Source: Lachnospiraceae bacterium (GTDB lineage Bacteria; Bacillota; Clostridia; Lachnospirales; Lachnospiraceae). Taken from it: DNA of 57,187 nucleotides. Below, piece by piece: positions 20,663 to 32,882 of this stretch; within the stretch, counting starts at the first letter, position 1; each line of letters begins with the position of its first letter. Location of the stretch: NCBI GenBank assembly GCA_022796475.1, contig JAAWIS010000012.1, forward strand, positions 1 to 57,187. Reading direction: 5' to 3'. Both the position numbers and the translations under genes were made by a program. Under the pieces are notes generated by a model. The model saw nothing but the letters and a program-made list of their open reading frames with translations, was not told the DNA's origin and did no database searches.

Positions 20663-20678
20663 ATCAGTGTGAAACAGG

Positions 20679-20697
20679 TGTCCCATAATATGGGACA
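20679..20697 (+). promoter_or_regulatory. Candidate IclR operator
   Basis: TGTCCCATAATATGGGACA is a perfect 9-bp palindrome around a single central base. It lies about 10-28 bases after the expected transcription start, so a protein bound here would block the polymerase. Position and symmetry suit autoregulation by the IclR protein encoded directly downstream; the binding partner is an inference. Confidence 0.7.
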
Positions 20698-20722
20698 GCA
20701 CAAAAAAGGAGCGTGGAAAATT

Positions 20723-21451
20723 ATGATAGAGAAAGCATTTAAAATCCTTGAGGCGATCACACAGACACGAGGGAATAACAGCCTGAATATTATCTGCGAT
20801 AAAGTGGATATACCAAGAAGCACAGTCCACCGAATTTTAACAACAATGAAGGAATGTGAAATGGTTGATTATGATCAAGACAAAGGATACCTGTTGTCCG
20901 GAAAGCTGATCCGTATGTGTCTGGCGGGTTTAGGAGATCGGGACTTTTTGGATGTAGCGATACCAGTGGCCCAGGAATTAAATTCCCATATAAGGGAAAC
21001 AATTTCCATTAACGTGCTGGTGGGATACGAACGTACCTGTGTATACCGGGTGGAAGGCAACATGGAGATTATCCGCAATGTAAAGATCGGAACCCATAAT
21101 CCGCTGTTTATCGGATCCACAGGAAAGGTACTGGCATCCGGGCTTTCAGGGAAACGGTATCAGGAAGCTCAGGATTACAGCATTGCCCAGGGAACCATTA
21201 GCCCGGAAAATCTGGAGAAAATCAATGCTGTAATTGAAAAATGCAGGGAAAACGGCTATGCCATCAGTGTACAGGAACGATATGGCGGCTGCTGGTCTAT
21301 GGCAGTACCGGTTATGAATCCCATTACCCGGGAGATGCTTGGGACTCTATCGATCAGTTCCGTATTGGAACGCTATACAAAAGAGAACGCAGAATGGTAT
21401 CTGAAACTGCTAAAGGAATCAGCAAGGAAGATTCAGCTTCGCTTATTTTAA
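20723..21451 (+). CDS. IclR-family transcriptional regulator
   Basis: A 242-residue regulator. The N-terminal winged helix-turn-helix (MIEKAFKILEAITQTRG ... IPRSTVHRILTTM) is followed by the IclR effector-binding domain, with landmarks IGSTGKVLASG (about 131-141), RENGYAISVQERYGG and the hydrophobic pocket strand SMAVPVMNP. IclR proteins bind small organic acids and control catabolic operons. It heads the operon it probably controls, with a palindrome in its own leader. ATG 20723 is used; GTG 20669 sits at the expected transcription start and has no ribosome binding site. Confidence 0.9.
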   Translation: MIEKAFKILEAITQTRGNNSLNIICDKVDIPRSTVHRILTTMKECEMVDYDQDKGYLLSGKLIRMCLAGLGDRDFLDVAIPVAQELNSHIRETISINVLVGYERTCVYRVEGNMEIIRNVKIGTHNPLFIGSTGKVLASGLSGKRYQEAQDYSIAQGTISPENLEKINAVIEKCRENGYAISVQERYGGCWSMAVPVMNPITREMLGTLSISSVLERYTKENAEWYLKLLKESARKIQLRLF

Positions 21452-21489: not shown

Positions 21490-22560
21490 ATGAAAAAGAG
21501 GAGAAGTATTGCAGCGCTGTTGTTAGCATCCAGTATGATAGTATCAGCATGTTCAGGTGGGGGAACCAGTTCGTCAGGCAAGGCAGATCCTGGACCTGCA
21601 GAGAAAAAGCAGGAGGCAGCATCAGGAGAAACAATTAAAATTAAAATTACAACCACGCAGAACCCAAACCAGCAGATGGGAAAAGGGCTTGCGATGTTGA
21701 TTGAAAATCTGGAAAAGGAATTAGGCAGCCGCGTAGAGGTTTCAGGTTACGATTCTGCCCAGCTTTACACCGGATCGGAAGAGATTACAGCATGTGAACA
21801 CGGTGATATTCAGATGTTTTTCGGAATTGGAGGAACCATGGAAACCGTAAGCAAGTCCGTTATGGCTGTTAAGCTTCCTTATCTGTTCCCGGATTCCGAA
21901 ACCGCTTATAAAGTATTGGAAGATCCGGAAATCAATGAAATGGTTTACGGTAAACTGAAAGAATCCGGTCTTCGCCTGGTTGGTCTGTTTGGCTCCGGCA
22001 GTTCGCTGGTAGCAAATAATAAACATGCTATCACAGGCCCCGGAGATTTTAATGGATTAAAGATGCGGGCTCCCGGAACAATGGAAGCTATGAATCTTGG
22101 ACAGTTAGGCGCCTCTTCCATTACAACCCCGTCTGAAGAAACGTATTCTTCCGTTCAGCAGGGGGTGATTGACGGTATGATTACACCAACCAGCGTATTT
22201 TTGGCACGAAACTTTAATGAAGTACAAGATTATGTAACGGATCCTGGTTTGATGGCCCTTACCATCGGATATCTGGTTTGCAATGAAAAGTGGCTTGCCA
22301 GCCTTCCGCAGGAAGACCAAGATAAAATTTTAAAGGCAATCGATACCACCATCACTCAGATGCGTGAAGACATTCAGAGTGAAACGGAAGAGATATTTGT
22401 AAAATGCGAGGAATTAGGATGCCAGGTTTATACCATGACGCCTGAGGATGTGGCGGCAATGAGAGAAGCGCTGCTTCCGGTTTATGACGAGATGGCAAAG
22501 GAAATTGGTCCTGAAGTAATTGAAGCGATGCAGGCAAAGGTGGAAGAAGTTACAAAATAA
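21490..22560 (+). CDS. dctP: TRAP transporter substrate-binding protein (DctP family)
   Basis: A 356-residue extracellular binding protein anchored as a lipoprotein: signal peptide ending VSAC, Cys21. The mature part has the DctP fold with GLKMRAPGTMEAMNLGQLGA (about 183-202), where the arginine that grips the substrate carboxylate sits, and SSVQQGVIDGM, the conserved helix of the family. TRAP binding proteins capture carboxylic acids such as C4-dicarboxylates, sialic acid or keto acids. Here the ligand is unknown but should be the acid processed by the downstream enzymes. GAAAGGAGAAG precedes the ATG. Confidence 0.9.
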   Translation: MKKRRSIAALLLASSMIVSACSGGGTSSSGKADPGPAEKKQEAASGETIKIKITTTQNPNQQMGKGLAMLIENLEKELGSRVEVSGYDSAQLYTGSEEITACEHGDIQMFFGIGGTMETVSKSVMAVKLPYLFPDSETAYKVLEDPEINEMVYGKLKESGLRLVGLFGSGSSLVANNKHAITGPGDFNGLKMRAPGTMEAMNLGQLGASSITTPSEETYSSVQQGVIDGMITPTSVFLARNFNEVQDYVTDPGLMALTIGYLVCNEKWLASLPQEDQDKILKAIDTTITQMREDIQSETEEIFVKCEELGCQVYTMTPEDVAAMREALLPVYDEMAKEIGPEVIEAMQAKVEEVTK

Positions 22561-22624: not shown

Positions 22625-24484
22625 GTGAAAAATAAAACAACAGCAATTGTGACAAAGGGCCTTAAAGGTCTTGCATGGCTGGAAGACAATATCAGTGCTG
22701 TTTTTCTTGGAAGTTCCATATTACTGCTTTTTTATGAGGTGTTAGCAAGGTATTTTTTTAACACGGCAGTGTATGTATCTACGGAGTGGACCCCGGTTTT
22801 AGTAACCTGGTCTATGCTGATGGGAAACAGTATCCTGATTCGGGAGCGGGGACATATCAACATTTCTCTGTTTGAAGACAGCTTAAAAAAGCCGGAAAAT
22901 AAAAGCTGGCTGAAACTGTATATTTCGGCAATTAATCTGATTTTCTGTTTGATTTTTTTAAATTCATCTATCCGCTTTGTTTCTGGGGCAAAGGCATCTA
23001 TGGTGCTTTCAGAGTCCCTGCTTCATACCCCCATGTGGATTATATTCAGTATGATGGTAATTGCAGGAGTGCTGATGTTAATTAACTCCTTCGTTAAAGT
23101 CTGTGAAGATGCAAAAGAAGTTGGAACGAATCCTAAGTCGTTTAAAACGGCGATGCCTCTGATTCTTCTTGCGATTACCGGTGTGATTCTTGCATTTGTA
23201 ATGTTGAATGGCAGTCCGCTGGTGATTATGGCGGTTATGATGTGCGGCTTTATGCTCCTTGGCGTTCCCATTACCTTTGCTCTTGGCATGGCGACGATTG
23301 TAGCGATTATGCGCTTTGATATTATTGCCACTGCTTCTTTGGCAAGTAAAATGTTTTACAGCATTAATAAATACAGCCTTCTTGCGATTCCATTTTTTGT
23401 GGTCAGTGGAAATATTATGGCGAAGAGCAGTATCGGAAAATACCTTCTTGAGTGGGCTAGCGCCCTGCTGCGCAGCATACAGGGGGGTCTGGCAATGGCC
23501 ATTGTAGGAGCAGCGATTATCTTTGCTGCAGTATCCGGCGCTTCCGCGGCAGCGGCAGCAGCGTTAGGAGTTATGGGCCTTCCTCTTCTGGTTGAAAAAG
23601 GGTATCCGAAATCCTTTGGTGCAGGGCTGATAGCAGCAGGCGGTACGCTGGCGATTATTATCCCGCCCAGTTCCATTATGATTCTTTATGCATGTACAGC
23701 AGAAGTTTCTACTACCGACATGTTTAAGGCCGGGATTGTCCCTGGGATTATTATTGCAATTGTACTGGTAGCTTATATTTATGGGTACTGCAAGAAAAAT
23801 GGATTCGGCAAGGATGATGTGGGAAAGTTTTCCATAAATGAAGTGCTCCATACATCAAAAAAGGCAATATGGGCGCTGCTTATGCCAATTGCCATTCTCG
23901 GTGCAATTTACAGCGGAATCTGTACTGCAACTGAAGCAGCGGCAGTATCTGTTATTTATGCAGGCATCGTGTGTCTGTTTATTTACAAAGATGTAAAAAT
24001 TGGGGAATTTAAAACAATTTTCTATGATTCAGTTCGTACCAGCGCATTTATTTTAGCCATTACTATGACAGCTACCTTGTTTGGCTTTTTGATCACTATG
24101 GAAAAGCTGCCTCAGATGATCTTAAATATTGTGCTGGGGGCGAATATCAACCGGGTAGGCCTGCTGATTGCATTAAACTGTGTCATGTTCTTATTAGGAT
24201 TTTTTATGAGTCCAGGTGCTATTATCCTGATTGTAGTACCCATGATTCTGCCGGTAACAGAGGCTATGGGGATTAATCCGATTCATTTAGGCATTATGCT
24301 TACGGTAAACCTGGAACTGGCGCTTTTAACGCCGCCAGTGGGGACAAACCTTTATGTGCTCAGCAAGATTTCAAAACTGCCGGTGCCGGAGGTTATTAAA
24401 GGGCTGATTCCCTTTATTGTAATCTTGTTCCTTGCGCTGATGTTCCTGACATTTGTACCATCGTTAAGCCTTTGCTTACTATAA
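22625..24484 (+). CDS. TRAP transporter fused membrane subunit (DctQM)
   Basis: A 619-residue polytopic protein that fuses the small and large TRAP membrane subunits. Residues about 15-175 carry four helices with TEWTPVLVTWSMLMG, the DctQ signature. From about 180 the DctM domain begins (GSPLVIMAVMMCGFMLLGVPITFALG), with the two inverted transport repeats, the GxSGASAAAAAALGVMGLP motif and the IIPPSSIMILYA motif. It uses the sodium gradient to import acid delivered by DctP. The start is a GTG preceded by GGAGGGAAATAA. It ends 10 bp before the next gene. Confidence 0.92.
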   Translation: MKNKTTAIVTKGLKGLAWLEDNISAVFLGSSILLLFYEVLARYFFNTAVYVSTEWTPVLVTWSMLMGNSILIRERGHINISLFEDSLKKPENKSWLKLYISAINLIFCLIFLNSSIRFVSGAKASMVLSESLLHTPMWIIFSMMVIAGVLMLINSFVKVCEDAKEVGTNPKSFKTAMPLILLAITGVILAFVMLNGSPLVIMAVMMCGFMLLGVPITFALGMATIVAIMRFDIIATASLASKMFYSINKYSLLAIPFFVVSGNIMAKSSIGKYLLEWASALLRSIQGGLAMAIVGAAIIFAAVSGASAAAAAALGVMGLPLLVEKGYPKSFGAGLIAAGGTLAIIIPPSSIMILYACTAEVSTTDMFKAGIVPGIIIAIVLVAYIYGYCKKNGFGKDDVGKFSINEVLHTSKKAIWALLMPIAILGAIYSGICTATEAAAVSVIYAGIVCLFIYKDVKIGEFKTIFYDSVRTSAFILAITMTATLFGFLITMEKLPQMILNIVLGANINRVGLLIALNCVMFLLGFFMSPGAIILIVVPMILPVTEAMGINPIHLGIMLTVNLELALLTPPVGTNLYVLSKISKLPVPEVIKGLIPFIVILFLALMFLTFVPSLSLCLL

Positions 24485-24494
24485 GGAGGAAAGT

Positions 24495-25667
24495 ATGGCA
24501 GATTTAAGTGTAAATTGCAACGGCCTGAAGCTGAAAAATCCTGTGATTGTGGCCAGCAGCCCGCTGACAGCCAGGTTATCCCTATTACAGGAGGCTGAGG
24601 AACAGGGAGCGGCAGGAGTCGCTGTGAAGCATACAATGATGACTCAGCGGTTTGAGGCCAGGCCAAGATGGCATTACGATAAAAAGATCGGTGTAACAGT
24701 TAGCGGCGACCCAAGGCTGAACCCGGAAGATGCATATGATCTGATCCGGAAGGCCAGAGAAAGCACAGATTTGTGCATCCTTGCTAATATGTCCGGTACT
24801 CCGGGAAAACTGGAAAGCTGGGGAGAACTGGCTAAGAATTTATGGCAGGCCGGCGCTGATGGAATTGAGCTGAACTTTAACTGTCCAAACCTTTTGTCAG
24901 CAGAAATTAAAACGGCTGTGCAGGGGGCGAATTTAGGAGCCGATCCGGAAGCCTGTGAAATTGTTGTAAGAGAAGTAAAAAAAGCAGTAACAGTCCCTGT
25001 AATCGTAAAGCTTTCAACAGAAAGCGGCGTTGCAGTAAAGGTGGCAAAAGCATGCCGCCAGGCAGGAGCAGATATTATTAATATCCATGCAGGTTACCGC
25101 TCTGCACCGGGAATTGATATTTATCATGGAGGCCGTTTCCTCTATCCCGGTTCGGAAAAAGGGAGTTTTGGAGGATGTACCGGCCCTTGGAGCCGCCGTT
25201 TCACACACCGTTTCCTGTCTGATATCCATGCCGCTGTTCCGGATGCAGGACTTATGGGAGGAAGCGGAATCCAGTCCTGGGATCATATTGTGGAAACGAT
25301 TATGTTTGGGGCTCAGAGCGTGCAAATTTGTACTTCGGTTATTCAGCAGGGATTTGGCTTGATAAAGAATTTAGTCCATGGACTGGAACAGTTTATGGAT
25401 GAGCAAAATTATAATTCAATAGAGGATATGAGAGGGCTGGCTCTCCAGTACGTGGTAAAACCGGGGGAAATGATTTATAAAGATGTGACGGCTGAAATTT
25501 CAGCAGATCAGTGCAGCGGATGTGGAAGCTGCAACCGGATCGGACACTGCAGGGCAATCTCTGTGGGAGAAAATGGAAAGAGTGTGGTAAATCCTGACCT
25601 TTGTGTTGGCTGCGGATTCTGTGTGGGCGTATGTCCGAAAACATGTATCCGCATGATTGAAAAATAG
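24495..25667 (+). CDS. PreA-like dihydropyrimidine/dihydroorotate dehydrogenase-type flavoprotein with 2[4Fe-4S] domain
   Basis: A 390-residue protein. Residues 1 to about 300 form an FMN-binding TIM barrel of the class I DHODH/PreA family: NPVIVASSPLT near the start, LNFNCPNL with the catalytic-type Cys130, VIVKLS, and GGSGIQSWDHIVETIMFGA, where the FMN phosphate binds. The C-terminus has two iron-sulfur motifs: CSGCGSCNRIGHC, with unusual last spacing, and the standard CVGCGFCVGVCPK. PreA reduces or oxidises a C=C bond next to a carbonyl using ferredoxin/NADH electrons through a partner. No PreT partner is present here, so ferredoxin may be used directly. Position between a TRAP importer and hydro-lyases suggests a redox step on a carboxylic acid. 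Confidence 0.85.
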   Translation: MADLSVNCNGLKLKNPVIVASSPLTARLSLLQEAEEQGAAGVAVKHTMMTQRFEARPRWHYDKKIGVTVSGDPRLNPEDAYDLIRKARESTDLCILANMSGTPGKLESWGELAKNLWQAGADGIELNFNCPNLLSAEIKTAVQGANLGADPEACEIVVREVKKAVTVPVIVKLSTESGVAVKVAKACRQAGADIINIHAGYRSAPGIDIYHGGRFLYPGSEKGSFGGCTGPWSRRFTHRFLSDIHAAVPDAGLMGGSGIQSWDHIVETIMFGAQSVQICTSVIQQGFGLIKNLVHGLEQFMDEQNYNSIEDMRGLALQYVVKPGEMIYKDVTAEISADQCSGCGSCNRIGHCRAISVGENGKSVVNPDLCVGCGFCVGVCPKTCIRMIEK

Positions 25668-25678
25668 GAGGAATTGGT

Positions 25679-26920
25679 ATGACAATAACAGAAAAAATCC
25701 TGGCAAAAGCAGCCGGGTTAGACCATGTAGAACCGGGGCAAATTATTGAAGTTAATGTAGATGCAGCATTTACAGTTGAAAAGCAAGGGCCTCTGTTTTT
25801 TGATGAATTCCGCAAAATGGGACTTAAAATTTGGGATAAGGAAAAAGCAATTATCCTGGTAGATCACGGTACGCCTCCCAGTAAGATTATGGATGCTAAC
25901 TTGATTACAGATACCATCCAATTTGCAAGGGAATACGATCTGCCGCTGTATAATTCAGAAGGGATCTGTCATCAGATTATGCCGGAAAAAGGACATATCC
26001 TTCCGGGATTTGCTTATGTGGGAACGGATTCCCATACCACCACATACGGCGCTCTGGGAGCATTTTCTACAGGCCTTGGGGCAACTGAAATGGCATGGGT
26101 ATTTAACAAGGGAAGCATTTGGATGAAGGTTCCAAGTTCCATTTTGATTGAAATTGAGGGAGAACTTCCAAAGCATGTATACGGCAAAGATGTGGCTCTT
26201 GCTGTTATGGCTCTGTTAGGGCCTGATGGAGCAAGCTATAAGGCTATTGAGTACAGAGGAAGCAGTATTAGACAGCTTAGTATCGATTCCCGTTTTTCTC
26301 TCTGCAATATGGCAGTGGAAGCAGGGGCAAAGAATGGAATTATCGAAGCAGATGAGAAGGCAATCGCTTATGTTAAGGAAAGAAACAGCCGGGAATTTGA
26401 AGTGGTTCATTCAGATCCAGATGCAGCTTATGATAAGGTATATCACATTGATGGAAGCAAAGTGGCTCCTATGGTGGCAAAACCAGGCGGCTCCCAGTAT
26501 TCTGTTCCGGTAGATGAAGCAGAAGGCATTCCGTTTACAAGGGCTCTTTTAGGTACTTGTACAAACGGAAGAATGGAAGATTTCCGCATTGCACGTGAGA
26601 TTTTGAAAGGCAAGAAAGTTTCTCCCGATGTCAGGTTACAGGTAATCCCCGGTTCCAGAAGGATTTATCAGCAGTGTATTGAAGAGGGAATCGTTCAGGA
26701 TTTCCTGGAAGCAGGTGCAATTTGGTGCAATCCCCAGTGCGGGCCATGTGCCGGCGGTCATTATGGACTGCTTGGAAAAGGGGAAGTATGTTTAAGCACA
26801 TCCAACCGGAATATGGTGGGAAGAATGGGCGATCCAACTTCCGAAGTATATCTTACTTCTCCGGCAGTTGTAGCAGCATCAGTGGTAAGCGGCAGGATTA
26901 CAGATCCTGGAAAGATTTGA
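25679..26920 (+). CDS. Aconitase/3-isopropylmalate dehydratase-type large subunit (cluster-containing)
   Basis: A 413-residue catalytic subunit of the LeuC/homoaconitase group. The three [4Fe-4S] ligands are in place: Cys294 in GTCTNGR, and Cys354 and Cys357 in PQCGPCAGG. Active-site motifs DHGTPP, GTDSHTTTYGALGAF and the final SNRNMVGRMGD are normal. These enzymes move a hydroxyl between neighbouring carbons by dehydration and rehydration; relatives act on isopropylmalate, homocitrate, methylcitrate-like acids or 2,3-dimethylmalate. There are no leucine-synthesis genes nearby, so a catabolic substrate delivered by the TRAP system is more likely. It works with the small subunit encoded 10 bp downstream. 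Confidence 0.9.
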   Translation: MTITEKILAKAAGLDHVEPGQIIEVNVDAAFTVEKQGPLFFDEFRKMGLKIWDKEKAIILVDHGTPPSKIMDANLITDTIQFAREYDLPLYNSEGICHQIMPEKGHILPGFAYVGTDSHTTTYGALGAFSTGLGATEMAWVFNKGSIWMKVPSSILIEIEGELPKHVYGKDVALAVMALLGPDGASYKAIEYRGSSIRQLSIDSRFSLCNMAVEAGAKNGIIEADEKAIAYVKERNSREFEVVHSDPDAAYDKVYHIDGSKVAPMVAKPGGSQYSVPVDEAEGIPFTRALLGTCTNGRMEDFRIAREILKGKKVSPDVRLQVIPGSRRIYQQCIEEGIVQDFLEAGAIWCNPQCGPCAGGHYGLLGKGEVCLSTSNRNMVGRMGDPTSEVYLTSPAVVAASVVSGRITDPGKI

Positions 26921-26930
26921 GGTGGCGGAT

Positions 26931-27476
26931 ATGAAGATACATAACAAAGTATTTGGTGTTTACGGTTCTGATGTGGCTGCAGAGCAGATCGCATCTTCGA
27001 AATACGTTACGGCAGTAACACCGGAAGGATTAGCCCAGGCGTGTATGAAGGACATTGATTTACAGTTTCATGAGAAACTGAATAATGGGAAGATTATGGT
27101 GGCAGCTCAGAACTTCGGATGCAATTCCAGCCGTGAGTGGGCGCCCAGAGCGCTTAAGTTTTCCGGGGTGGAGCTTGTGATTGCAGACAGCTTTGCAAGG
27201 ATTTTTTTCCGGAATGCAATTAATATTGGTTTTCCAATTATCGAATGCCAGGACATTTGCCAGTTCTGTGAAGAGGGAGATGAACTTGACGTGGATCTTT
27301 CCACCGGCGTCATTAAAAACCTGACCAGGAAAACAGAAAAAAAGGGAACCGTACTTCCGGATTTTCTTTTAGATATTATGACAGCAGGAGGCCTTCTTGG
27401 CAAGCTGAAAGCTGAAATGAAGGATGAAGAAAACCGTGCTGCAGACGTTTGTGAACCGGAGGGAAGATCAGAATGA
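26931..27476 (+). CDS. Aconitase/3-isopropylmalate dehydratase-type small subunit
   Basis: A 181-residue swivel-domain subunit. NFGCNSSREWAP carries the catalytic Ser and substrate Arg of the family, followed by SFARIFFRNAINIGFP, the usual dimer and substrate strand. The normal opening GDdIdTDxI is altered to GVYGSDVAAEQI, and the first 30 residues are unlike LeuD. It ends with an unusually charged tail (KAEMKDEENRAADVCEPEGRSE). The ATG at 26931 is preceded by GAGGTGG; GTG 26922 lies inside that site. The stop overlaps the next start by four bases (ATGA), indicating coupled translation. Confidence 0.88.
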   Translation: MKIHNKVFGVYGSDVAAEQIASSKYVTAVTPEGLAQACMKDIDLQFHEKLNNGKIMVAAQNFGCNSSREWAPRALKFSGVELVIADSFARIFFRNAINIGFPIIECQDICQFCEEGDELDVDLSTGVIKNLTRKTEKKGTVLPDFLLDIMTAGGLLGKLKAEMKDEENRAADVCEPEGRSE

Positions 27477-28567
27477 AGATTCAGAAAATAGAACTGCTCA
27501 AGGCCATTACATCTGAATCAGGAGCAGATGGATTTATGGTCTACAGCCCTCAGTGGCATAAGGAAAACTACCGTTTTCTTACAGAGAAAAATTTTATCGG
27601 GCCTTTTGGCGTGATTTTGTACCTGGCAAAAACGGATCAGGTTCATATCATCTATGGTTCCCTGTGGGATCAGTGCAAAAATGAACCTTTGCTGAATGGA
27701 GTGACGCTTCATGGCGAAAATCCATACGGCGTAGTCAGCCAGCTTCTTAAGGATGGGGCAGTTAAAAAATTAGCGCTGTCAGGCGGCAAGTATATCCCCT
27801 GGAGCCTGTCACAGGCCATCCAGGAGGCTGGTGCAGATTGGATTTCAGTGGAAGGAAAGCTGGAAGCTGCCAGAATGCAGAAAACGGATGAGGAAATCGG
27901 TTATCTGAAGCAGGCAGTAAGCCTGGCTGACCAGGCCTGGACCGTATTTATGCAGGGCGTAGCCGATGGATTAAACGAGTATCAGATTGTAGCTGAAGTG
28001 GAGCATTACATAAAACGTCATGGAGCAGAAGACTGCTTTATGCTGTTAGCTACCGGAGGAGATGAAGTGCGGGGCATGACGCCTCCTATGATGCGGGTTG
28101 CCGGGCCGGGCCAGATGGTGCGTACTGAGATTACCCCTCAAGTAAAGGGCTGGTGGGCCCAGATTTGCCGGACTTGTGTAAAAGGAAAGGCCAGTGATAA
28201 TCAGAAACGGGCCTTTGAGATTTTCCTGGAGGCAGAACAGGCAGGATTTGACCGGATTCGCCCCGGAGTGAATATTAAAGATGTGGCAAAGGCAGAAAAT
28301 GACATATTCCGCAAATATGGCTATGGGGAGTACTGTACAGAAAAGTATACCAGAGTGCGGGGCCATGGGCACGGTCTGGATTTGGATGAGATGCCGTTAG
28401 TACTGGAATCTACCGATCTGGTATTAAAAGAGAATATGGTAGTTGTAATTCATCCCAACACTTTTAGCCCGCTGTGCGGATATATGGTTTTTGGAGATCC
28501 GGTATTAATCACAAAAGACGGATATGAGCTGCTTTCCGTAACGGAACGCAAGTTGTTTGAGGTGTAG
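27473..28567 (+). CDS. M24 'pita-bread' family protein, creatinase-like, metal ligands lost
   Basis: A 364-residue protein with a creatinase N-terminal domain (about 1-130) and a C-terminal M24 fold. In metallo-aminopeptidases five residues (D, D, H, E, E) hold two metals. Here the first pair is E219 and Q230 with the correct 11-residue spacing, the histidine is kept (H298 in GHGHGLDLDE), the usual second histidine is D305, and the two glutamates become H327 (VVVIHPNTF) and G341. Creatinase of Pseudomonas likewise has this fold without metals and hydrolyses a C-N bond. A C-N hydrolase or lyase acting on a carboxylate substrate is therefore plausible, but not proven. It starts inside the previous stop (ATGA). 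Confidence 0.8.
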   Translation: MKIQKIELLKAITSESGADGFMVYSPQWHKENYRFLTEKNFIGPFGVILYLAKTDQVHIIYGSLWDQCKNEPLLNGVTLHGENPYGVVSQLLKDGAVKKLALSGGKYIPWSLSQAIQEAGADWISVEGKLEAARMQKTDEEIGYLKQAVSLADQAWTVFMQGVADGLNEYQIVAEVEHYIKRHGAEDCFMLLATGGDEVRGMTPPMMRVAGPGQMVRTEITPQVKGWWAQICRTCVKGKASDNQKRAFEIFLEAEQAGFDRIRPGVNIKDVAKAENDIFRKYGYGEYCTEKYTRVRGHGHGLDLDEMPLVLESTDLVLKENMVVVIHPNTFSPLCGYMVFGDPVLITKDGYELLSVTERKLFEV

Positions 28568-28580
28568 AAGGAGGATAAGT

Positions 28581-29591
28581 ATGAAGCGTGGATATATGGA
28601 TTGGGATAAGAATCTGCTGCCTCTGTCTGCCCTGGAACAGAGAAGACAGCTTCTTCTTGAGGAAGCAGGGAAAAATGGGATTCTGGCAGTTGTAGTCTAT
28701 GGCGATGTATATTCAGCAGATGAATTGTCATATTATGTAAATTATGCGCCTTACTGGTGCAACAGCGCGGCTGTAATAACCAAAGATGAACTTTATATGG
28801 TTACCGGACATAACAACAGGGTAAATCCCTGGATCCATACGCTTACCGGCATTGAACAGGATAAGCTGTTAGCTTCCGGTTTTAAGGTGCCGGATCGGAC
28901 GGCACTTTCCCTTAAGGAACGGTTTCCGGAGGGCGGAAAAATCGGAGTGATTGGAAAATATGTAATGGATGCCCTTGCAAAAGCTCTGCAAGAACAAGGT
29001 TTTGAACCGGTTATGATGGGAGAAGCAGCCAGGCTTTTCGAAAAATCCGATGAATCTTACAGAAAAATCGGGGCGAAAGCAGCTCAAATTCTTAAGAATG
29101 CATTTGCCTGGGGCAGAAAGCAATATGACCAGGGAGAAAATTCCCGTATCGTTACAGCAGAAATTGAGTACGATGCAAGAAAAAATGGCGCTATGGATAT
29201 TGTTCTGTATGTATCAGATAAGGGCAAAGCCTTTGGGCTTCCAGAAGTCAGGAAAGACGGAAAGGGAAAATGGACGGTTTGCGCCCTTATGCAGTATCTG
29301 GGTGTTTGGGTAAGTTTTACAGAAACATTCGGTGCAGATTTAACGGAAACGAAAAATCAGCTTCAGCAGGCAGCGAAAGCGCTGGTTCCCGGAGAAATTG
29401 CAATTGCTCCAAAAGAGGGCATAGAAACCGCTGTTTGCCAGGTACTGTCAGATTCAATTTCAGACTTGAACAGCAAAATAGAAATGGCTTCCCTGGGCCA
29501 GGTGATTTCTGTAGAAGTATGGGACAGGAACAGGGATATTTTCTGCAGTGATATGTACTGCATTACTGAGAAGGGAGCAGTTGTTTTATGA
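28581..29591 (+). CDS. Divergent M24/creatinase-like protein, apparently non-metal and truncated
   Basis: A 336-residue relative of the preceding protein. The N-terminal domain is recognisable (LEQRRQLLLEEAGKNGILAVVVYG), and the middle KWTVCALMQYLGVWVSFTETF lines up with the segment that holds E219/Q230 upstream. The later part lacks any GHG motif, the HE pair and the final Glu region. No residue of the two-metal site remains. It may be a non-catalytic partner for the upstream M24 protein or a new activity. A clear GGAGG and the continued operon structure (overlap ATGA with the next gene) argue that it is expressed, not a pseudogene. The start is ATG 28581. Confidence 0.65.
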   Translation: MKRGYMDWDKNLLPLSALEQRRQLLLEEAGKNGILAVVVYGDVYSADELSYYVNYAPYWCNSAAVITKDELYMVTGHNNRVNPWIHTLTGIEQDKLLASGFKVPDRTALSLKERFPEGGKIGVIGKYVMDALAKALQEQGFEPVMMGEAARLFEKSDESYRKIGAKAAQILKNAFAWGRKQYDQGENSRIVTAEIEYDARKNGAMDIVLYVSDKGKAFGLPEVRKDGKGKWTVCALMQYLGVWVSFTETFGADLTETKNQLQQAAKALVPGEIAIAPKEGIETAVCQVLSDSISDLNSKIEMASLGQVISVEVWDRNRDIFCSDMYCITEKGAVVL

Positions 29592-30850
29592 ACATGATAG
29601 AAAAAATTCTGGCAAAAGCCAGCGGTAAAAAGGAAGTAAAGCCGGGTGATGTGGTAGTAGCTAATGTAGATACTTTGCTGCTTCACGATTTAAGCGGTTA
29701 TATTACTGCTAATGTATTTGAAAATGAAGTGAAAAAAGATATGCGCTATCCAGAGCGTGTGGCAATGGTATTTGACCATCATTTCTCGCCGCCTACCCAG
29801 CAGAGGGCAGAAGTTCTGGAACGAAACAGGGAATTTGCCAGAAAGTACAATGTAAACTTGTTTGACTGCGGTTCCGGCAATATCCATAATGTAGGAGTAC
29901 GGAAAGGCTTTGTGCGCCCGGGAACGATAGTGGCAGGTTCTGACAGCCATACTCCGGTTCACGGCACTATGGGCTGTTTTGCAACGGGACTTGGAAATAA
30001 TTCCAATGCAGCAACCGTAATGGCTTACGGAAAAGCATGGTTTATGGTTCCGAAAACCATTAAGATTGAGTTAACAGGCCGCACAAAACCAGGCGTAACC
30101 CCAAGAGATGTGGCGTTGTGGCTTACGGGTCAGATCGGTGAGGGCGGAGCGGTATACCGCGCTATTCATTTTACCGGCTCATTTATGAAAGAATTAGATG
30201 TATGGGACAGATGGCTGTTCCCGCTGATTACCATTGATGTAGGCGGAAAGTGCGGCTTTATTGATCCGGATGAAAAAACCATTGAATTTATAAAACAATA
30301 TACAGACCAGCCTTTTGAAGTGTTTACTTCCGATCCGGACTGTGAGTATGAAAAAGTACTGCACTTTGATATCAGTAATTTAGAGCCTCAGGTTGCAGCA
30401 TCCCCCACTCTTGGAAATGTAAAGCCCGCTGCTGGATTTGCAGGAAATCCGATCCAGTGGGCAGAATTAGGCGGACACGGCGGCGGAAGGCTGGAAGATT
30501 TCAGGCAGGCGGCACAGATCTTAAAAGGCCACAAGCTGGCTCCTGGCGTTAAGTTTAATGCAGTGCCAAGCAGCAGAGAAACCTTTGACATGTGTCTTAA
30601 GGAAGGGATTGTAGAGATCTTCCATCAGGCAGGCGCCTCCTGGTTCCCGGCCAGTACCGGTTCTAACCAGGCAATTAACATGGGAGCCATGTCAAAGAAT
30701 GAAGCCATGATTTCCACTCATGCCCGAAACTTCCCTGGAAGAAACGGAAGTCCGGAAGCAATTATGTATCTGAGTTCAGCTTATACGGCAGCAGCTTCTG
30801 CTGTAAAGGGATGTGTGGCAGATCCGAGAGAATTTTTGGAGGTATTATAG
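29588..30850 (+). CDS. Aconitase-fold large subunit lacking the [4Fe-4S] cysteines
   Basis: A 420-residue homologue of LeuC/aconitase over its full length: ILAKASGKKEVKPGD at the start, FDHHFSPPTQQ, GSDSHTPVHGTMGCFATGLG, HFDISNLEPQVAASPT and HARNFPGRNGSPEA. At the three cluster positions there is no cysteine: the GTCTNGR site reads GGHGGGR (residues 295-301) and the CGPC site reads ASTGSN (about 354-359). The cysteines that do occur are elsewhere. The frame is long and intact, tightly packed in the operon and followed by two matching small subunits, so this is not decay in progress. It cannot bind a cluster in the normal way. A different metal, a [2Fe-2S] cluster on other residues (as in AcnX relatives), or cluster-free chemistry would be needed. 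Confidence 0.85.
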   Translation: MNMIEKILAKASGKKEVKPGDVVVANVDTLLLHDLSGYITANVFENEVKKDMRYPERVAMVFDHHFSPPTQQRAEVLERNREFARKYNVNLFDCGSGNIHNVGVRKGFVRPGTIVAGSDSHTPVHGTMGCFATGLGNNSNAATVMAYGKAWFMVPKTIKIELTGRTKPGVTPRDVALWLTGQIGEGGAVYRAIHFTGSFMKELDVWDRWLFPLITIDVGGKCGFIDPDEKTIEFIKQYTDQPFEVFTSDPDCEYEKVLHFDISNLEPQVAASPTLGNVKPAAGFAGNPIQWAELGGHGGGRLEDFRQAAQILKGHKLAPGVKFNAVPSSRETFDMCLKEGIVEIFHQAGASWFPASTGSNQAINMGAMSKNEAMISTHARNFPGRNGSPEAIMYLSSAYTAAASAVKGCVADPREFLEVL

Positions 30851-31339
30851 ATGGAAGCAAAGGGTCGCTGCTGGAAATTCGGAGATAACATTCCAACGGA
30901 TCAGATTGTAAAAGCAGATCGGGTGCTTTTAAGCATTGATGAGATGGCGAAGCATGTGCTGGAAAACTTAAATCCGGACTTTCCAAAGAATGTAAAAAAA
31001 GGAGATATTCTGGTAGCAGGAAAACATTTTGGCCAGTCTTCCGGAAGAGCAGTAGCGCCGAAGGCGATTAAGGCTACAGGAGTAGGGGCGGTAATTGTGG
31101 AATATGCTTCCCGGTTATTTTACCGGAATGCTTACGAAATCGGGCTCCCACTTCTGGAATGTGAGGGGATCACAAAAGGAGTTAATGACGGTGATATTCT
31201 CTATGTTAACATGGAGGAGGGTCTTGTTAAGAATGAAACCACAGGTCAGGAATTCCATGCCAGGCCAATTGATCCATTTTTGATGAGGATGCTGGAAGCA
31301 GGAGGCTTGATTGCCTTCGGACCTGAAATTGATGAATAG
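30851..31339 (+). CDS. Aconitase/IPMI-type small subunit, copy A
   Basis: A 162-residue LeuD-like swivel domain. It opens with FGDNIPTDQIVKADRVL, the family's GDdIdTDqI motif, then VAGKHFGQSSGRAVAPKAI, where the normal SSRE reads SGRA: the catalytic Ser and Arg positions are kept, but the second Ser and the Glu are replaced. EYASRLFYRNAYEIGLPL follows. It starts directly after the stop of the cluster-less large subunit (TAG ATG), so both are probably made together. It is very similar to copy B just downstream (roughly three quarters identical by eye) and much less similar to the small subunit at 26931. Confidence 0.88.
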   Translation: MEAKGRCWKFGDNIPTDQIVKADRVLLSIDEMAKHVLENLNPDFPKNVKKGDILVAGKHFGQSSGRAVAPKAIKATGVGAVIVEYASRLFYRNAYEIGLPLLECEGITKGVNDGDILYVNMEEGLVKNETTGQEFHARPIDPFLMRMLEAGGLIAFGPEIDE

Positions 31340-31361
31340 ACAAAGAGATGGCGGTGATAGA

Positions 31362-31862
31362 GTGAGTAAGAAAACAGGAAGAGTGTGGAAGTTCGGAGAT
31401 AATATCCCTACAGACCAGATTGTAAGAGTCGATCGGGCTTTGGGATCCATGGAAGAAATGGCGAAACACGTATTGGAAAATTATAATTCGGAATTTCCGA
31501 AAAAAGTTCAGAAGGGCGACATTCTGGTAGCAGGAAAGCACTTTGGCCAGTCTTCCGGAAGAGCGGTAGCGCCGAAGGCCATAAAAGCCACAGGGGTAGG
31601 CGCGGTGGTAGTAGAATACGCTTCCCGTCTGTTTTACCGGAATGCTTTTGAAGTAGGGCTTCCTCTGATGGAATGCCCGGGCATTACAGAACATGTATCA
31701 GATGGGGATCAAATGTCTGTGGATATGGCTGCAGGAGAGATCAAAAATGAAACAACAGGAGAAGTACTGAAAGCCAGGCCGGTGGATCCTTTTTTGATGG
31801 AGATGCTGGAGGCAGGAGGCTTGATTGAATTCGGCCCGCGTATCGATGAGTGGAAGGCTTAA
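31362..31862 (+). CDS. Aconitase/IPMI-type small subunit, copy B
   Basis: A 166-residue tandem paralogue of copy A, with FGDNIPTDQIVRVDRAL, the identical GKHFGQSSGRAVAPKAIKAT block and EYASRLFYRNAFEVGLPL. The main differences lie in the specificity-loop region after DQIV (KADRVLLSIDEM versus RVDRALGSMEEM) and near the C-terminus. I chose the GTG at 31362 because GGCGGTGAT five bases upstream matches the 16S tail; ATG 31332 inside the previous gene is an alternative. Keeping two intact copies suggests two substrate specificities for one large subunit, or a heteromeric complex. Confidence 0.85.
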   Translation: MSKKTGRVWKFGDNIPTDQIVRVDRALGSMEEMAKHVLENYNSEFPKKVQKGDILVAGKHFGQSSGRAVAPKAIKATGVGAVVVEYASRLFYRNAFEVGLPLMECPGITEHVSDGDQMSVDMAAGEIKNETTGEVLKARPVDPFLMEMLEAGGLIEFGPRIDEWKA

Positions 31863-31865
31863 AAC

Positions 31866-32882
31866 ATGGCAGGAATGATTCACTTTATATTGTTCTGGGG
31901 GTTCAGTTATCTTGGATATCAGGCAGGCAGGCGTCTTAAAGTGCCTGCTCCTGCTATTCTTGGCCCGATTATTTGTTTTATGCTCCTGGCGCTATTGGGG
32001 ATCAAGCTGTCTGTTCCATCCTGGCAAAAGCCTGTATTGTCAGTAGTCACAGGGATTCTTTTAGGAATCCGCACTAACCACAGTTTAAAAGGCGTATATT
32101 GGCAGATTATTGTGTATGGAGTTTGGCTTGTGGCATTGACTCTGGCTGGTGTTTTTGTTTTGACCAAGGCGGGAATCGATAAGGAAACCGCTTTTTTTGC
32201 GGCTACGCCAGGCGGTATGGCAGAGATTACCTTAATGTCTTTGAATTATCATTCCGATCCTTTTGTAACGGTACTGCTTCAGTCTTCCAGAATGTTAATT
32301 TCCATGGCAGTATTTTCTTTCTTGGCGTCCAAATATCAAAAACCAGTTAATGAGGCTAACGTCCAGAAACAGCCGGAAAACGCCGGAAAAACAATTTCGA
32401 TCCCTATGTGGGGAATCCTGTGTATCCTTTCCCTGATTGCGGCAGTTGCTTTGAAACAGATTCATGTGCCGGTTCCCTATCTATTAGGGCCCATGGCGGT
32501 GATTGGTGCAGCGGTCCGAATGGGCGGATTTTCCAGCAGGATAGACAAGCGTATCCAGAACCTGGTACAGCTTGGAATTGGCGGATTAACTGGGGCATCT
32601 ATTACAAGGGAAAGTATGATTGGCCTGCCCCGGTATATCATACCGGTGATTCTTTTAAATGTGCTGGTTATTGGAAGCGGTCTTTTGATGTCGCGGATTT
32701 TTATGAAAATTACAAATTGGGATAAGGCCACATGCATCTTAAGCTGCTGCCCGGCGGGCCTTTCACCTACTATTATGGTAGCTATGGAATATGGGGCCAA
32801 TGCCAATATTGTTACCATATTTCAGGTTTTGCGTATGGTAACAGTGCTGATTGCCACTCCATTTTTAGTTGAATGGATATAA
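31866..32882 (+). CDS. AbrB-family integral membrane protein (PF05145 type), putative transporter
   Basis: A 338-residue polytopic protein made of two similar halves of about five helices each: GYQAGRRLKVPAPAILGPI in the first and LKQIHVPVPYLLGPMAVIGA in the second, plus ATPGGMAEITLMSL and CPAGLSPTIMVAMEYGAN, the paired family signatures. Despite the name it is unrelated to the AbrB DNA-binding protein; the family is suspected to transport or regulate, but its substrate is unknown. It is the last gene of the operon, 3 bp after copy B, and is followed by a terminator. An exporter for a product or second importer would fit. Confidence 0.85.
   Translation: MAGMIHFILFWGFSYLGYQAGRRLKVPAPAILGPIICFMLLALLGIKLSVPSWQKPVLSVVTGILLGIRTNHSLKGVYWQIIVYGVWLVALTLAGVFVLTKAGIDKETAFFAATPGGMAEITLMSLNYHSDPFVTVLLQSSRMLISMAVFSFLASKYQKPVNEANVQKQPENAGKTISIPMWGILCILSLIAAVALKQIHVPVPYLLGPMAVIGAAVRMGGFSSRIDKRIQNLVQLGIGGLTGASITRESMIGLPRYIIPVILLNVLVIGSGLLMSRIFMKITNWDKATCILSCCPAGLSPTIMVAMEYGANANIVTIFQVLRMVTVLIATPFLVEWI

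Follow-up and report, generated by a model that had tools for sequence, protein, structure and literature searches.

As usually taught, aconitase chemistry requires the open iron in a [4Fe-4S] cluster. In aconitase, Fe4 faces Asp165, His167 and His147 (PMC8184944). The same source gives Aconitase X as the superfamily precedent for an altered cluster site, in which non-standard cysteines hold a [2Fe-2S] or [3Fe-4S] cluster and cysteines are kept near Cys421/Cys424, and it reports the proposal that the superfamily ancestor was without a cluster. Aconitase X enzymes (cis-3-hydroxyproline dehydratase and mevalonate 5-phosphate dehydratase) retain an Fe-S cluster along with three cysteines.

The window analyzed here, a stretch of 57,187 nucleotides from a gut bacterium of the Lachnospiraceae, encodes a 420 amino acid, aconitase-fold large subunit without these cysteines (29588..30850, forward strand; identified by ORF, Pfam, NCBIfam and alignment), which we refer to as Lneg. 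Residues 1-415 align with the isopropylmalate/citramalate isomerase large subunit of Methanocaldococcus jannaschii (PDB 4kp1, 4nqy) with an E value of 3.5e-96. HMM scores place Lneg on the HacA/LeuC side of the superfamily rather than with Aconitase X. The two-subunit architecture of the HacA/LeuC subfamily is shared by Lneg and its small subunit, Sneg, but Lneg lacks the cluster cysteines, Asn258 and Asn446 of that subfamily and falls below the cut-offs of both the LeuC equivalog TIGR02083 (330.7 vs. 610.65 bits) and the methanogen HacA equivalog NF040615 (312.2 vs. 550 bits). In common with mitochondrial aconitase, Lneg-Sneg has the substrate-site Asp, His and Arg positions and the small-subunit Ser642 and Arg644 positions, although it lacks the cluster ligands and has Asp in place of Glu262.

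Based on the patterns of sequence conservation described below, we consider it probable (roughly 60%) that Lneg-Sneg forms a branch of the aconitase/isopropylmalate isomerase superfamily that is competent in catalysis yet free of a [4Fe-4S] cluster. The clade makes the cluster-independence of aconitase or related chemistry directly testable, and bears on the cluster-free ancestor proposed in PMC8184944. There is also a practical consequence in the form of an annotation trap: the NCBIfam model named "aconitase/3-isopropylmalate dehydratase large subunit family protein" accepts both Lneg from the window and its Alicyclobacillus orthologue at its cut-off.

Ligand columns and substrate-site residues of Lneg and Sneg

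Membership of Lneg in the superfamily is clear from its match to Pfam Aconitase (PF00330) at 228.1 bits (gathering cut-off 28.7) and from NCBIfam, where it scores 396.1 bits against NF001614 (cut-off 385) and also exceeds the cut-off of TIGR01343. A reading made from the sequence alone had described a full-length aconitase-family protein without any of the three cluster cysteines, and the ORF, its length and the alignment agree with this description. As that reading also stated, GGHGGGR occupies the columns where the paralogue at 25679-26920 has GTCTNGR, and the SDSHT and FDHH motifs are retained along with the full length. Its pairing of CGPC with STGS, however, was one column off; by column pairing, CGPC corresponds to TGSN. 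Thus, the counterparts of the cluster ligands Cys358, Cys421 and Cys424 in Lneg are His297 (codon 30476-30478), Thr357 (30656-30658) and Asn360 (30665-30667).

To evaluate the ligand columns, we aligned 41 full-length orthologues with 27 cassette partners and a further 22 members of the family. Cut or over-long ORFs had been omitted beforehand (5 of the 46 orthologues, 8 of the 35 partners and 2 of the 24 others). All 49 non-orthologues have cysteine in the three columns. None of the 41 full-length clade members has the three-cysteine ligand set of a [4Fe-4S] cluster; instead, the columns contain His (41), Thr, Ala or Ser (35, 4 and 2, respectively) and Asn (41). Residues are given in pig aconitase numbering, taken from an alignment where it extends and otherwise, as for Asp100/His101 and the small-subunit residues, assigned via family motif.

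The equivalents of Asp100, His101, His147, Asp165, Ser166, His167, Arg447 and Arg452 are retained in 41 of 41 sequences (Asp63, His64, His100, Asp119, Ser120, His121, Arg380 and Arg385 in Lneg). An inactive pseudo-aconitase is defined by loss of substrate-binding and acid-base residues, and the clade shows the opposite pattern, with these residues kept throughout. Changes are seen at the Asn258 column (Leu in 36, Met in 3 and His in 2 of the 41), at the Asn446 column (Ala in 34, Ser in 6, Val in 1) and at Glu262, which is Asp in every clade member. The clade therefore retains the substrate- and Fe4-facing residues and replaces those that hold the cluster. The sequence-only reading had suggested either another kind of metal site or the absence of metal, and this is the best fit to the data, since the Fe4-facing residues are kept and the cluster-facing ones have been replaced by fixed residues.

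Lneg might alternatively hold an Fe-S cluster, either Aconitase X-like or mixed, through C94, C222 and His297. C94 and C222 are the sole cysteines invariant in the clade (41 of 41) and are rare elsewhere; C94 sits six residues ahead of the His147 equivalent. Together they could, in principle, hold another cluster, and the clusters at non-standard cysteines in Aconitase X set a precedent. However, neither residue is at a ligand column, and a search of the clade alignment for three other conserved cysteines found just these two invariant ones, so that a third is absent. Neither occupies an Aconitase X position, and the cysteines of the Cys421/Cys424 region, kept in Aconitase X according to PMC8184944, are both gone. 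We regard a retained cluster as quite unlikely.

Lneg is followed in the window by Sneg1 (30851..31339, forward strand), identified as its small subunit by Pfam, NCBIfam and motif alignment, and by a second small subunit with the same motif, Sneg2 (31362..31862, forward strand; the listed ORF, 31311-31862, begins at an upstream TTG). The motif FGQSSGRA is present in 46 of 46 Sneg sequences, whereas other small subunits read CGSSRE, CNSSRE or CGSARE. In the ungapped motif alignment, the Ser642 and Arg644 positions are kept in all 46 and the Ser643 position is Gly. A usable Sneg row was available for 41 loci, and Sneg is duplicated in 5 of them.

Distribution, descent and selection

To identify orthologues, the pattern GGHGGGR-x-ED was back-translated and scanned against a collection containing one genome per species. 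The scan returned 49 stretches, 46 of which contain an Lneg orthologue (L072, L073 and L115 do not). By record title, the orthologues are from Actinomycetota (21), "Deltaproteobacteria" (9, of which 6 are labelled Myxococcota and 3 are unlabelled), Bacillota (7), Pseudomonadota (5), Spirochaetota (3) and Chloroflexota (1). Lneg represents a clade that spans at least six phyla; besides the gut bacterium of the window, 46 further bacterial species carry a member.

Invariance of GGHGGGR-ED among the 46 hits is by construction, as it was fixed by the search pattern. Motif-free protein searches covered 148 genomes of a Deltaproteobacterium class, 150 of a Pseudonocardiaceae-type family, 200 of the order Burkholderiales and 145 of a spirochaete family, and yielded 9, 2, 1 and 2 matches, respectively. 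Thirteen of the 14 were already pattern hits. The sole new match (L141) reads GGHAGGR and has ASTGSNQ in another frame of a broken contig. In this small sample, therefore, the presence of His297 does not come from the choice of pattern alone.

The cassette is patchy, which counts against the main reading. When 397 genomes from the family of the source organism and 391 from its class were searched with the protein (E <= 1e-88), only the window's own copy was recovered (1/397 and 1/391). One orthologue, 89-90% identical to Lneg, was found among ten congeners, in a Lachnospiraceae MAG. When the pattern was used without its ED extension on 299 genomes of the phylum, it proved too unspecific: 52 matched, a number similar to that of the reversed control, although one true orthologue (G266) was among them. 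A tblastn search against plasmids returned 380 records, all with <60% identity, and the four examined carry all three cysteines. Peptide patterns from Lneg alone, searched against genome contigs, gave 15 stretches and zero relatives because the patterns fell on variable regions of the protein.

In the phylogenetic tree, all cysteine-less proteins fall on one side of a branch with support of 100/100; the stem measures 1.88 changes per column. A first tree, with 41 cysteine-less rows, gave the same split with support of 100; the second omitted five long-branched rows and thirteen loci. Comparison with the congener orthologue gave dN of 0.064 and dS of 1.75, a ratio of about 0.04 that is rough because dS is near saturation.

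A few orthologues (L122, L139 and L141) are truncated or frame-shifted in their assemblies. Such broken copies are what a decaying duplicate or sequencing artefact would lead one to expect, but the 46 orthologues in six phyla, the fixed replacement residues and the low dN/dS make chance or decay a poor explanation. Simple decay is ruled against by the conservation of the clade together with this ratio, and we give the decay or artefact reading hardly any weight.

Genuine decay is seen elsewhere in the genus. From 61 related genomes we recovered 72 distinct aconitase-family genes, after merging two exact duplicates and two partial copies. Three cysteines are present in 67 of them; they are absent from the window protein and its congener orthologue, two genes are decayed and one is incomplete. 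By residue comparison, the two decayed genes encode cluster-less, large subunit-like proteins (L060, 7009-8484; L061, 6824-8047) that have also lost the His147, Asp165, Ser166, Asn446, Arg447 and Arg452 positions. Within the stretch read, no small subunit belonging to the decayed protein was found. The two proteins are an unrelated second cluster-less kind, a case of real decay that is unlike Lneg. Each gene lies beside one for a fused small and large, cysteine-bearing aconitase-type protein (L060, 5203-6996; L061, 5016-6809). By translation, genes nearby encode isocitrate/isopropylmalate-dehydrogenase-like, phosphate-acetyl/butyryltransferase-like and kinase-like proteins.

Cassette architecture and partner exchange

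Lneg marks an undescribed catabolic cassette; a limited literature search turned up no paper that deals with the cassette or with a family of aconitases lacking the cysteines. In the window, the genes listed here are all on the forward strand. Upstream are an IclR-family regulator (20669..21451; Pfam), which recurs in 4 loci, and a probable TRAP substrate-binding lipoprotein (21490..22560; by translation), which recurs in 5. These are followed by a TRAP-type transporter membrane protein (22625..24484), assigned from its translation and conserved place, and a PreA/dihydroorotate-dehydrogenase-like oxidoreductase with a C-terminal two-[4Fe-4S] domain (24495..25667; Pfam, NCBIfam). The cysteine-bearing large subunit, Lpos (25679..26920; GTCTNGR and CGPC, Pfam 312.8 bits), and its small subunit, Spos (26922..27476; motif CNSSRE, Pfam and NCBIfam), precede two M24-related genes, M24a (27473..28567; M24/creatinase-like, by Pfam M24 and motif comparison) and M24b (28581..29591; a degenerate M24-like paralogue that starts at the ATG of MKRGY). 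After Lneg and the Sneg genes, an AbrB-type membrane protein (31866..32882; Pfam, NCBIfam) closes the cassette. This is the type A order: TRAP, PreA-like, Lpos-Spos, M24a, M24b, Lneg, Sneg, often a second Sneg, and AbrB. The order in type B is M24a, M24b, OCD, Spos-Lpos, Lneg, Sneg.

Among the 22 long loci, an oxidoreductase is present in all (PreA-like in 5, OCD/mu-crystallin in 17), the cysteine-bearing pair in 21 (the exception, L129, meets a contig end) and M24a with M24b in 19. The three without the M24 genes are from Deltaproteobacteria (L127, L130 and L131). The nearest PDB relatives of the OCD protein are pyrroline-2-carboxylate reductase and alanine dehydrogenase.

The canonical metal ligands of M24 enzymes are Asp, Asp, His, Glu and Glu. 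M24a has Glu, Gln, His, His and Gly at these positions in 24 of 24 aligned relatives; four are changed, and thus the five-ligand set of the family is not present. In comparison with creatinase, ectoine hydrolase and prolidase, the Alicyclobacillus copy of M24a matches prolidases best (8.9e-30; creatinase, 3e-17). M24b has no recognizable catalytic domain when compared with M24 enzymes: the window copy has no Pfam match and the Alicyclobacillus copy matches Creatinase_N only. The tandem is likely a metal-independent, creatinase-like pair that is conserved with the cassette.

The sequence-only reading had offered a scaffold or regulatory subunit as one option. In this form, Lneg-Sneg would be a non-catalytic partner that assembles with Lpos-Spos and stabilizes or regulates it, as in the active/degenerate paralogue pairs of other heteromeric enzymes. 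A cysteine-bearing pair is found in 39 of 47 loci over the stretches covered, and also in L077 and L095 (the stretches for L076, L085, L087, L118 and L129 end too early to score), and it is directly adjacent to Lneg in type B. Moreover, Lneg and Lpos have diverged in step (type B, Mantel r 0.92, n 18, p 0.0001; type A, r 0.74, n 6), and a mixed complex would produce the same pattern. However, all substrate-site residues examined are kept in the 41 sequences, 45 of 47 loci also encode a small subunit that belongs to Lneg, and this subunit has the Ser642 and Arg644 positions in 46 of 46 cases, so a scaffold or regulatory role finds no support in the residues. One locus, L089 (1594-4283), encodes Lneg, Sneg and OCD without a cysteine-bearing pair.

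Partner identity also bears on this point. Within cassette types, Lneg and the cysteine-bearing partner are both 69-76% identical. Between types A and B, Lneg is 68% identical on average, whereas the partner, drawn from two clades, is only 40% identical. Other cysteine-bearing families lie between the two partner clades in the tree, with moderate supports (92-93/79-85). We conclude from the identities and the tree that another paralogue has taken the place of the partner, whereas Lneg has been retained. This favors two enzymes with linked steps over one fixed mixed complex. A fixed Lneg-Lpos complex as first choice is set back by the exchange; it is retained as a rival, and a non-catalytic Lneg-Sneg is in our view unlikely. 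The comparisons indicate that the cassette moves as one unit. In L089 the start of the Spos gene is fused to a TctC gene, through a deletion or an assembly fault.

Predicted chemistry and cassette variants

We predict that Lneg-Sneg performs its own proton-transfer step on a small carboxylate, either an allylic shift of a double bond or the hydration or dehydration of an activated alkene. Proton-transfer chemistry is the likeliest option because the cluster is gone, but Ser642 and Arg644 remain, as do the Asp-His pairs and the arginines that bind carboxylate. The small-subunit serine would act as the base, with the emptied cluster pocket filled by His297 and Asn360. This pocket may be metal-free or may bind one metal ion via His297 together with His100, Asp119 and His121. 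The leaving group or double bond of the substrate would need no strong Lewis acid.

Lneg-Sneg would act beside, not inside, the normal aconitase-type pair that has the cysteines. Their pathway may also involve M24-type (creatinase-like) chemistry and an oxidoreductase that reduces an imine or a ring. It is probably for breakdown of a small, nitrogen-containing carboxylic acid, as suggested by the creatinase-like M24a, OCD and PreA-like neighbors. The fuller picture, of an active cluster-free aconitase-fold family (with a single metal held by His297 and the Fe4-facing residues, or metal-free) in an undescribed cassette with an altered M24 pair, is put forward tentatively, and we rate it at somewhat under even odds. 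If it holds, the family would serve today as a model of the cluster-free ancestor proposed for the superfamily, having arrived there by secondary loss.

The neighboring genes were also considered as a guide to the substrate, but TRAP, TctC, NMT1, hydantoinase A/B, UbiD and MmgE/PrpD vary among loci and fix no substrate. Near the cassettes without M24 genes are hydantoinase B (L130), UbiD (L127 and L130) and further OCD genes (L131). These genes, or the NMT1/TctC transporters that also lie nearby, may take the place of the M24 pair. In two spirochaete loci, L122 and L123, an extra gene between M24b and Lneg (9686-11302 in L122) encodes a 538 amino acid, lipoprotein-like product with a weak match to Peptidase_S9.
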